In this document: one piece after another, positions 106 to 4,977 of the stretch
Numbering within the stretch: the first letter of the stretch is position 1
Layout: each line of letters opens with the position of its first letter
NCBI GenBank assembly: GCA_016932965.1
Contig: JAFGBW010000020.1
Location: forward strand, 1-10,538
DNA from: Candidatus Auribacterota bacterium
Lineage (GTDB): Bacteria; Auribacterota; JAFGBW01
DNA: 10,538 bases
Reading direction: 5' to 3'
Position numbers and translations under genes: made by a program
The notes under the pieces: generated by a model
Told to the model about the DNA's origin: nothing
What the model saw: only the letters and a program-made list of their open reading frames with translations
Databases searched by the model: none

Positions 106-119
106 GTTTTTTTAGTTTT

Positions 120-216
120 GCAGGGAAACTTTTGTGAACAAAAGTTTCCCTGCACCCTTCAAAAAACTTTATATGAACGCCATGAAGCCAAGACTTTGTC
201 TTGGCTTCATGGCGTT
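120..216. repeat. Double-hairpin intergenic repeat, copy A
   Basis: Two perfect hairpins lie in series. The first (120-153) has a 15-bp stem GCAGGGAAACTTTTG with loop TGAA. The second (176-216) has a 19-bp stem beginning AACGCC and ending CAAGAC, with loop TTT. The spacer between them reads CCCTTCAAAAAACTTTA. Copy B at 1236-1391 carries the same two modules in mirror order, so the two copies are inverted relative to each other around the DUF362 gene. Neither hairpin is followed directly by a U-tract on either strand; the nearest is five T at 223-227, six bases after the second stem. They are therefore not textbook intrinsic terminators, although they may still end transcription or protect RNA 3' ends. 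The right flank (217-240) weakly resembles the decayed left arm of copy B. Confidence 0.85.
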
Positions 217-276
217 AAAACCTTTTTAATAAAAAAGATGAAAAATAATTCCAAATACCCGTAAGTCTTTTCTGTC

Positions 277-1218
277 ATGCTGTCGATACCTAAAGTTTAT
301 GTAGGCGAAGTGAAAAATTATGATCCTTTAAAATTGAGGGAGGCCGTCACTTCTCTTCTTGAATACACCCAGTGCAGACACATTTTCAGATCCGGGGACT
401 CGGTGCTGATCAAACCCAATTTCGTCATGGCCCCCAAACAAAAAGAGCATCCTGTGGTCACGAATCCTTTTCTTCTCATGGAATTGATCAAATGCATGAA
501 GGACCTTGGGACCCGTCCTTTTCTGGCAGATTCACCGGGATGGGGGAATCCGGCTTCAATTGCTAGAAAAATCGGTTTGTCTGATTTTTGTTCAAAAAAC
601 CAGGTGCCTATTAAAAAAATCAGGCATCTCCGGTTTCAGAAAAATCCATTCCCTTTTGGCCCTAAATGGATGCCTGTCTCCAAAGATGTTCTTGAAGCAG
701 ACCATGTTATTAATGTTCCTAAATTGAAATCCCATACCCAGATGTACCTCACCCTTTCTGTTAAAAACCTGTTCGGGTGTGTTCCCGGCCGTCTGAAGGC
801 CTTTTTTCATAACTGGTACGGAAAAAACCCCCATCGTTTTACCGATCTCATTCTGGCCAATGCTCTCATGATTAAACCCTGTCTCCACATTGTGGACGGG
901 ATATCGGCCATGCATAAGGCCGGACCCATGCTGGGAGAACCCCTTCCATTAGGGCTTCTTTTTGCCGGAACGGATCCGATAACGGTAGACCAGATCATCT
1001 GCCACATGATTCAGGCTGATCTTCAGCAGGTCAAAATCCTTCAAAGCGCCAAAAAAAATAATCTCATGCCTTTTTCTGTTTCTGACATTGAAACCTCTGT
1101 CCCTTTGAATTCACTTTCCCCATTACCTATATTTCATCATGTAGAATTTTTGGCCCCTGTCCAATTCAATCTATATCGTGTCATTCGCGGTCTGATTAAA
1201 AATTGGTTTACCAAATAA
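277..1218 (+). CDS. DUF362 family protein
   Basis: This 313-residue protein carries the hallmarks of the DUF362 family (Pfam PF04015). These are VLIKPNFV near residue 43, TNP at 62, ADSPG at 84, the signature INVPKLKSHTQ followed by SVKNLFG (about 145-167), and VDGI...GTDPITVD (about 206-238). Family members have no settled function. Many carry a ferredoxin-like 4Fe-4S domain, but this one has none, with only a few scattered cysteines and no CxxCxxC cluster. No signal peptide or membrane segment is evident, so it is probably cytoplasmic. The ATG at 277 is the first start after an in-frame stop at 262 and sits seven residues before the conserved VYVGEVKNYDP start. No Shine-Dalgarno sequence precedes it. 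It is bracketed by inverted copies of an intergenic repeat and followed by amrS. Confidence 0.85.
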   Translation: MLSIPKVYVGEVKNYDPLKLREAVTSLLEYTQCRHIFRSGDSVLIKPNFVMAPKQKEHPVVTNPFLLMELIKCMKDLGTRPFLADSPGWGNPASIARKIGLSDFCSKNQVPIKKIRHLRFQKNPFPFGPKWMPVSKDVLEADHVINVPKLKSHTQMYLTLSVKNLFGCVPGRLKAFFHNWYGKNPHRFTDLILANALMIKPCLHIVDGISAMHKAGPMLGEPLPLGLLFAGTDPITVDQIICHMIQADLQQVKILQSAKKNNLMPFSVSDIETSVPLNSLSPLPIFHHVEFLAPVQFNLYRVIRGLIKNWFTK

Positions 1219-1235
1219 TCATGTTATTACATTGG

Positions 1236-1391
1236 GGGAAAATATCGTTTTTAAAAAGTTTTTTTCCCTGTAATCCTTTTTTAAAAAGCTTTATTTTCGC
1301 CTCATGTTCAAGACTTAGTCTTGAACATGAGGCGAAACCAATAAAAGTTTTGAAAGGTTTCAGGGAAACTTTTTTCAAAAAGTTTCCCTGA
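1236..1391. repeat. Double-hairpin intergenic repeat, copy B (mirror orientation)
   Basis: The central hairpin (1295-1337) is a perfect 20-bp stem that begins TTTCGCC and ends CAAGAC, with loop TTA. The right hairpin (1360-1391) has a 14-15-bp stem TCAGGGAAACTTTT. A decayed partner of that hairpin occupies the left arm (about 1236-1268, GGGAAAA paired with TTTTCCC), so the whole element is roughly one large palindrome centred near 1316. The linker ATAAAAGTTTTGAAAGG is the reverse complement, with changes, of the linker in copy A. No U-tract follows the hairpins; the right one is followed by AAAAAATAAAAAC and then the amrS start codon. The best description is an interspersed palindromic repeat that may double as a transcript-end or leader structure. 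Confidence 0.85.
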
Positions 1392-1403
1392 AAAAATAAA
1401 AAC

Positions 1404-3897: not shown

Positions 3898-4886
3898 AAG
3901 CCCCGACTCCTTCCCCTCTTCCCACCAAGATACTGGATGTCAGACATCTTCGTGTTCATTTTAAAACAGACGAAGGCATGGTGGAAGTGGTCCGGGATGT
4001 GTCTTTTACTTTGTTCCGCCGTGAAACGCTGGCTCTGGTCGGTGAATCCGGATCCGGAAAATCCGTGACCTGCCTTTCCATCAATCGTCTGCTTCCATGC
4101 CCTCCGGCTGTCATTTCCGGCGGAGAAATCATCTACCAGGAAGTCAATCTGTTAAGATTACCCTGGAAAGAAATGCATCTCTGCCGCGGCAAGGATATCG
4201 CCATGATTTTCCAGGAACCGGCTACGGCGTTAAACCCTATTCTGACGATCCGGACCCAAATGAATGAAGTCTGGTTGAGACATAAGGACATCCGCGGGAA
4301 AGAAGCGGATTACTGGAGCATTGATCTTTTAGCAAGGGTCGGCCTTCCGGATGCCGCCAAACGGCTGGATTCTTATCCGCATGAATTATCCGGGGGAATG
4401 CGGCAAAGGGTTTTGATCGCCATGGCGCTCATCACGAATCCTTCAATCCTCATTGCCGATGAGCCCACTACCGCCCTTGATGTGACCACCCAGGCCCAGA
4501 TCCTGGAACTGTTGGTGAAGATGCAGCAGGAAAGAAAAATAGGCAGCCTTATTTTTATTACCCATAATCTGGCCCTGGTGTCACAGATCGCCGACAGGGT
4601 GATCGTTTTTTACGCAGGCCAGATTCAGGAGGAAGCTCCGGCTTCTGAATTGTTCAGACATCCCGCCCATCCCTATACCCAAGGGCTCCTGTCCTGTTTT
4701 AATTCGTTAGAACATAAAGAAGACCGTTTCCATGCCATTTCCGGTAATCCGCCTGATTTAAAGCTGTTGCCTTCAGGTTGCCCGTTTCATCCGAGATGCC
4801 CCCATGTCGTGGAGCGCTGTAAGACCGTGGCCCCGGAGTTAAGAGCCGTAAACGAAAAACATACCGCCCGCTGCCATTTTGTGTGA
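3894..4886 (+). CDS. Peptide ABC transporter ATP-binding protein (OppD/DppD type)
   Basis: This 330-residue cytoplasmic ATPase has all nucleotide-binding motifs: Walker A GESGSGKS (about 50), Q-loop FQEP (106), signature LSGGMRQR (165), Walker B ILIADEPT (185) and the switch histidine in ITHN (H224). The C-terminal oligopeptide-transporter tail has AHPYTQGLL (about 258) and GCPFHPRCPHVVERC (about 295). Cysteines 296, 302, 309 and 327 match the pattern that can hold an iron-sulfur cluster in some relatives. It resembles one half of E. coli YejF, which has two such domains in one chain. Here only one domain is encoded and no OppF-like gene follows, so the transporter needs a partner ATPase or a homodimer. 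The ATG overlaps the permease stop (ATGA), indicating translational coupling. Confidence 0.93.
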   Translation: MKAPTPSPLPTKILDVRHLRVHFKTDEGMVEVVRDVSFTLFRRETLALVGESGSGKSVTCLSINRLLPCPPAVISGGEIIYQEVNLLRLPWKEMHLCRGKDIAMIFQEPATALNPILTIRTQMNEVWLRHKDIRGKEADYWSIDLLARVGLPDAAKRLDSYPHELSGGMRQRVLIAMALITNPSILIADEPTTALDVTTQAQILELLVKMQQERKIGSLIFITHNLALVSQIADRVIVFYAGQIQEEAPASELFRHPAHPYTQGLLSCFNSLEHKEDRFHAISGNPPDLKLLPSGCPFHPRCPHVVERCKTVAPELRAVNEKHTARCHFV

Positions 4887-4923
4887 TGTGAGGAATCAAT
4901 TTATTAAAAAGAGATAAAATTAC

Positions 4924-4977
4924 GGGAAGATTTTTTTCGAAAAGGAAAGTTTCCCTTCAGACTTTTTCTTTTTTTTT
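4924..4977. terminator. Terminator between convergent operons, derived from the hairpin repeat
   Basis: The imperfect hairpin 4924-4955 pairs GGGAAGATTTTTTT with the complementary side ending AAGTTTCCC, using one mismatch and three G-T pairs. It looks like a diverged copy of the CAGGGAAACTTTT hairpins at 120-153 and 1360-1391. For + strand transcripts leaving the ATPase gene it is followed, seven bases later, by a T-rich tract (4963-4977, TTTTTC then nine T). That tract is the antisense of the last codons of the flippase gene. In the other direction the stop codon of the - strand operon (4957-4959) abuts the stem, and moderately T-rich DNA follows. A bidirectional terminator is the likeliest reading. 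Confidence 0.6.

Follow-up and report, generated by a model that had tools for sequence, protein, structure and literature searches.

The closest known relatives of the elements described here are the RAYT-associated REP, BIME and REPIN repeats, which are short, multicopy intergenic palindromes that lie mostly downstream of genes and form opposed dimers of unlike units (PMC3733652, PMC3116915). The following two further groups are comparable: bacterial stem-loop sequence families, in which intergenic stem-loops with a common structure are repeated (PMC2267715); and mitochondrial double hairpin or repetitive hairpin elements, in which adjacent hairpins are dispersed between genes (PMC2800124). 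Moreover, intrastrand triplex motifs of the TM-ECO type, with one homopurine arm and, beyond the hairpin, a third block in mirror match to an arm, have been reported to be abundant in bacteria (PMC4666352). At the level of process, template switching within inverted repeats leaves two published marks, namely homogenised arms and inverted spacers (PMC8604942). Double substitutions also belong to this quasipalindrome mutation (PMC8604942, PMC8794818), which has been proposed as the keeper of perfect RNA hairpins (PMC8794818).

In this study, a stretch of 10,538 nucleotides from a Candidatus Auribacterota bacterium (the window; assembly GCA_016932965.1, contig JAFGBW010000020.1) was analyzed, in which two intergenic hairpins with shared ends and different central stems had been noticed. 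These two hairpins are members of a set of about 65 or more two-hairpin intergenic DNA repeats of one bacterium, and each is the B half of a larger element that the preliminary description had overlooked. Unlike REP, BIME and REPIN repeats, the family carries no GTAG/CGTC tag as a rule, has no Y1/RAYT transposase that could be found, and shows an A-L-B layout (hairpin A, linker L of ~23 nt, hairpin B) with nearly free stem sequence. In contrast to the stem-loop sequence families, the linker mirrors the adjacent arm and several subfamilies occur in one genome. The sponge mitochondrial elements conserve their stems and vary their loops, whereas here the stems vary and the layout is conserved. 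TM-ECO-type motifs have one homopurine arm, whereas here purines give way to pyrimidines along the arm and the third block changes over accordingly, and a triplex is a candidate structure. Template switching is a mutation process rather than an element family, and its action here would extend over an entire family of repeats. Because the tag of REP repeats is rare here, their transposase was not found and the sponge elements keep their stems, the family was classed as a new variety of bacterial interspersed palindromic repeats; it does not appear to be a new kind of system, and its proposed mechanism is read from sequence patterns.

The first hairpin reads AACGCC ATGAAGC CAAGAC TTT GTCTTG GCTTCAT GGCGTT, with a loop of 3, and the second reads TTTCGCC TCATGTT CAAGAC TTA GTCTTG AACATGA GGCGAAA, with 20-21 perfect pairs. 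Their folding z-scores against dinucleotide shuffles are -10.2 and -11.2, respectively, and the positions and perfect complementarity reported for them were borne out, far beyond chance. The claim that all seven central pairs differ holds in the ungapped register, in which two pairs outside CGCC differ and are compensated as well (AA/TT versus TT/AA), giving nine differing pairs in all; however, symmetric indels form part of the difference, since CATG is present in the arms of both hairpins with an offset of 2 bp. The exact core CAAGACTNNGTCTTG occurs at only two sites in the 3.14-Mb, 300-contig genome, both being the window hairpins, which the preliminary description would have taken to point to chance or ordinary terminators. 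A search with relaxed sequence and the layout kept revealed a genome-wide family, and this test was therefore too strict. The relaxed relatives L086 (ACGGCTCATGCGCAAGACC...) and L098 (ATCTCCATGATTCCAAGAT...) align with the 1295 and 176 copies, respectively, and in this group of four copies, B_III, both-sided changes were found in 11 of 19 pairs and none was broken. No Rfam family matched at the window hairpin sites. The suggestion that the ends and the loop form a fixed recognition site was abandoned, because variation in the wider family extends to CGCC/GGCG, to CAAGAC and to the loop.

Hairpins were surveyed in 1.17 Mb (~38% of the 3.14-Mb genome), and R1, a covariance model of A-L, was used for the remainder. 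The survey yielded 70 long near-perfect hairpins (score of at least 13) versus 0.2 in Markov shuffles; since detection required near-perfect pairing, with G-T and A-C treated alike, decayed copies are hidden and perfection is inflated in these counts. Adjacent hairpins formed 36 pairs, including a few loci fetched by pattern match and one contig counted twice, and the spacing was 23-25 nt in 28 of the 36. The 1.17-Mb sample held 25 such pairs, 168 kb of genome G001 held none, and 68 kb of genome G002 held one unrelated pair. Each unit consists, in order, of hairpin A (GGGAAAC..TTTT/AAAA..GTTTCCC, with the arm pattern (G)GGGAAA..C..TTTT), a linker with conserved sequence (23-25 nt), and hairpin B, whose stem is freely variable and whose loop is usually 3 nt; layout and linker are the constants of the family. 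After exclusion of one apparently spurious unit from the 30 gathered, the 29 distinct A-L-B units (from ~38% of the genome) were assigned by linker to the following four subfamilies: type I (CCCTTTTCAAAAAATTTTATTGG; n=12), type I' (n=3), type II (CTTCCTTTCAAAAGAAAA type; n=9) and type III (the window type; n=5). Units are often opposed (A-L-B...B-L-A) and span an intergenic region. Genome-wide, R1 recovered 65 unique A-L sites on 47 contigs (E<=1e-3, model-building sites included). Among 48 relatives, two weak matches were obtained, neither of them in the two same-order genomes, and of 77 genomes from another phylum a single one gave a weak match; sampled stretches of two same-order genomes contained no A-L-B units. 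The family appears to be lineage-specific, a term that reaches no further than this comparison, in which the nearest genomes were of the same order only.

Table 1. Parts of the two-hairpin elements in the window (positions are those of the window).
Feature	Position	Strand	Remarks
Hairpin A, unit 1 (TGCAGGGAAACTTTTGTGAACAAAAGTTTCCCTGCA)	119..154	+	17 perfect pairs
Linker L, unit 1 (CCCTTCAAAAAACTTTATATG)	155..175	+	family-conserved; mirror match of A arm
Hairpin B, unit 1	176..216	+	first reported hairpin; 19 perfect pairs, loop TTT
Degenerate A-L half, right-hand element (GGGGGAAAATATCG...TTTTTTTCCC then TAATCCTTTTTTAAAAAGCTTTATT)	1233..1297	+	model R1, DNA fold
Hairpin B, right-hand element	1295..1337	-	second reported hairpin; common to flanking A-L halves; DNA fold
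Linker L, unit 2 (minus strand CCTTTCAAAACTTTTATTGG)	1338..1357	-	
Hairpin A, unit 2	1358..1393	-	model R1 E 8.2e-9
Possible decayed A-L copy	4921..4977	+	weak model R1 match, E 0.045; may be chance

In the window (Table 1), hairpin A of unit 1 begins ~14 nt past the stop codon of a gene ending near 105, and R1 matches 119-175 at E 5.8e-14. On the right, 1233-1393 form a compact A-L-B-L-A arrangement in which one B is common to both halves, and its degenerate A-L half was matched by R1 at E 1.1e-4 in the window and 0.002 genome-wide. Hairpin A of unit 2 lies 11 nt ahead of the start codon of a radical SAM gene (1404); because of this proximity, and since no Shine-Dalgarno sequence is visible (1393-1404), the hairpin may affect translation of that gene. 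The A-L-like sequence at 4921-4977 lies where two genes converge, one with its end at 4886 (+) and the other at 4957 (-). In addition, a minus-strand tRNA gene (2485-2567) was observed, with the radical SAM gene on one side and a pair of peptide transporter genes on the other.

Compensated stems, first noticed in the two window copies, proved to be real and general across the family. Among most-similar links between equal-length hairpins, 75 stem changes were compensated (39 transversions and 36 transitions) versus 5 uncompensated. In B_I (8 copies in fixed register), both-sided changes affected 7 of 16 pairs with 99% of cells paired, compared with 0 of 500 shuffles, and the shuffle result applied to B_III as well. 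RNA stems commonly evolve via G-U, and this route is not visible in the stems of the family; on the A-to-B strand, none of 1071 stem pairs was G-T and 5 were A-C. Moreover, the B_I loops fall into the classes AAC/GTT, AAA/TTT and TTC/GAA, each present in both orientations in the same frame (p 0.004-0.009), which amounts to spacer inversion. Symmetric indels and, at L056 8465, symmetric loss of an apex were also found. Recent events are visible in near-duplicates at L140 with GCCCGC/GCGGGC changed to GCCTGC/GCAGGC and neighbouring A loops of GCA and TGC, and near-duplicates at L161 with GCGGATT changed to GCGCATT in both arms. At L161, the B hairpins at 1435-1499 and 2696-2730 have the outer seven pairs CGCATTC in common and stems of 31 and 16 pairs, respectively. 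The interiors of these two hairpins are entirely unlike, as though the interior had been swapped in one step.

Given the observed family, layout, covariation and depletion from divergent gene pairs, we propose, at a probability of roughly 0.55, that the window hairpins are B halves of lineage-specific bipartite repeats whose arms are kept perfect by template switching and which have a boundary role. During replication, the nascent strand would switch template inside the palindrome and remake one of the arms to match its partner (quasipalindrome correction), and a mutation in one arm would thereby disappear or be carried into both. Under selection, a hairpin and linker would be kept, not the stem sequence, and the element at gene 3' ends and intergenic boundaries would block or mark ends in a strand-symmetric way (termination, protection of transcript ends or a DNA-level boundary). 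The stem sequences drift freely and the arms nonetheless match perfectly, probably through recopying of one from the other. Regeneration of one arm from the other, already raised in the preliminary description, is the best-fitting reading of the near-equal numbers of transversions and transitions, the missing G-T pairs and the inversion of some loops. DNA-level arm homogenisation combined with hairpin selection appears to fit better than RNA evolution via G-U. On the other side, loop inversion was seen in B_I and not in A or B_II, whose loops are mostly in one orientation, and G-U would also be disfavoured under bidirectional RNA selection. The copies are all paralogous and come from a single draft genome, with comparison genomes no closer than the same order (DUF362 relatives sought for orthologous comparison were at most 36% identical). 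No change can therefore be dated by orthology, and the case for template switching is read from the pattern of changes.

The positions of the units relative to genes bear on a possible, though less likely, explanation at the RNA level, according to which the units are bidirectional clustered-hairpin terminators or protectors of mRNA 3' ends and the covariation arises from RNA-fold selection alone. Such a role agrees with the scarcity of units between divergent genes, which flanked none of 15 unit-bearing intergenic regions of at least 100 nt (25% expected) and one of 17 at a threshold of at least 60 nt, the sample of regions being small. It also agrees with the A hairpins, which often begin 3-28 nt past a stop codon, and with the proposal that hairpin clusters without a U-tract act as intrinsic terminators (PMC8355165). 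However, the A side was near gene 5' ends in 10 cases and near 3' ends in 14 (by simple ORF calls), so that units also stand directly ahead of start codons. Furthermore, only 8 of 116 stem-exit flanks had at least 6 T in 10 nt, which ruled out classical terminators, and the terminator scan called none at the window hairpin sites. The lack of G-U on the A-to-B strand and the frequency of transversions, which equals that of transitions, likewise argue against RNA-fold selection alone. Our working guess for the units is a strand-symmetric boundary or gene-end role.

Somewhat less probable is a non-autonomous mobile repeat of the REP/REPIN or MITE type, mobilised by a transposase in trans, with the variety of stems reflecting old copies. 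Paralogous copies with conserved linkers are indeed dispersed over 47 contigs, near-duplicate pairs lie ~1 kb apart (at L140 and L161), and opposed dimers of unlike units recall REP heterodimers (PMC3733652). As with REP repeats, there are many intergenic copies (65 sites) that avoid divergent pairs (0 of 15). Nevertheless, a search for the Y1 transposase (PF01797), which covered this type and had a positive control, found none in the genome (92.6% complete), and RAYT mobility was rejected on this ground. The GTAG/CGTC tag was present at only 3 of 58 stem bases, all in type II A hairpins, and inspection by eye found neither target duplications nor empty sites. The type I and III patterns were also absent from viral contigs, which excluded a viral origin.

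The linker is the subject of a further and more doubtful reading, in which hairpin A and L form an intrastrand alternate-strand triplex (H-DNA-like), with L as the third strand and B as an anchor hairpin. L matches the 5' arm of A when this is complemented but not reversed, and so mirrors the 3' arm; for example, GGGAAAAAC-TTTTTT corresponds to CCCTTTTC-AAAAAA, and TGAAGGGAAACTTTTCTTTT to ACTTCC-TTTCAAAAGAAAA. The mean L-arm mirror score was 9.28 versus 6.20 in dinucleotide shuffles (z 12, 29 units), a z that overstates independence because the copies are related. The signal was significant separately in families I (z 8.3), II (z 10.3) and III (z 5.1), in each of which L matches the arm of its own family best. 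To our knowledge, no common mutation process yields mirror repeats. Moreover, the polarity suits a third strand that would follow the purines of the 5' arm (pyrimidine motif) and then those of the 3' arm (purine motif), and the purine/pyrimidine switch is correct for a Y-motif lower half and an R-motif upper half. Unlike the known intrastrand motifs with one homopurine arm, the A arms switch from purine to pyrimidine, so that only an alternate-strand form would fit; no description of an alternate-strand triplex family was found in the open-access literature searched. On the other hand, family I' has no mirror signal (z 0.3, n=3), and the rule predicts G at the junction, where C stands instead. 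In addition, the family I linkers show pairing with the flank upstream (z 4.3), a simpler though partial account of the linker there, which fails in family II (z -1.0). That A-L might be a genome-wide triplex element, with L tracking the arm across subfamilies (three-strand covariation) and the structure drifting via arm copying, is slightly more doubtful again.

Chance or two unrelated terminators, to which the two exact core sites alone could point, has a negligible probability in view of the folding z-scores, the excess of long hairpins over shuffles, and the fixed spacing and linker across the family. Several other candidates were rejected. A gene cassette or integron was excluded by the mixed orientation of the genes between units, and copying of the B arms from elsewhere in the genome by the few 14-mer matches outside the family. 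A likeness to Desulfovibrio-type motifs was not borne out, as three Desulfo plasmid stretches yielded nothing and searches of plasmids and phages returned no convincing match. Two other repeats were observed in the same genome. One is a separate palindromic repeat, TGTCATTCCCGCGAAAGCGGGAATCCAGGATTTTC...GGATGACA (L153 6004-6073 and L140 1995-2022), which we take to resemble the ATTCCC-GGGAAT repeats of other bacteria, and the other is a small family of the short palindrome TCATCATGCCTTNAAGGCATGATGA with a variable centre (L084 32, L142 899 and 5713, and L075 1371).

If this reading is confirmed, the repeats would preserve in nature a record of palindromes with arms rewritten from each other, and they would allow the upkeep of perfect hairpins without conservation of the stem sequence to be tested directly. 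The family also calls for caution, as covariation by itself is no proof of RNA function. Furthermore, the mirror linker would offer a way to test for natural alternate-strand triplexes in a bacterium.
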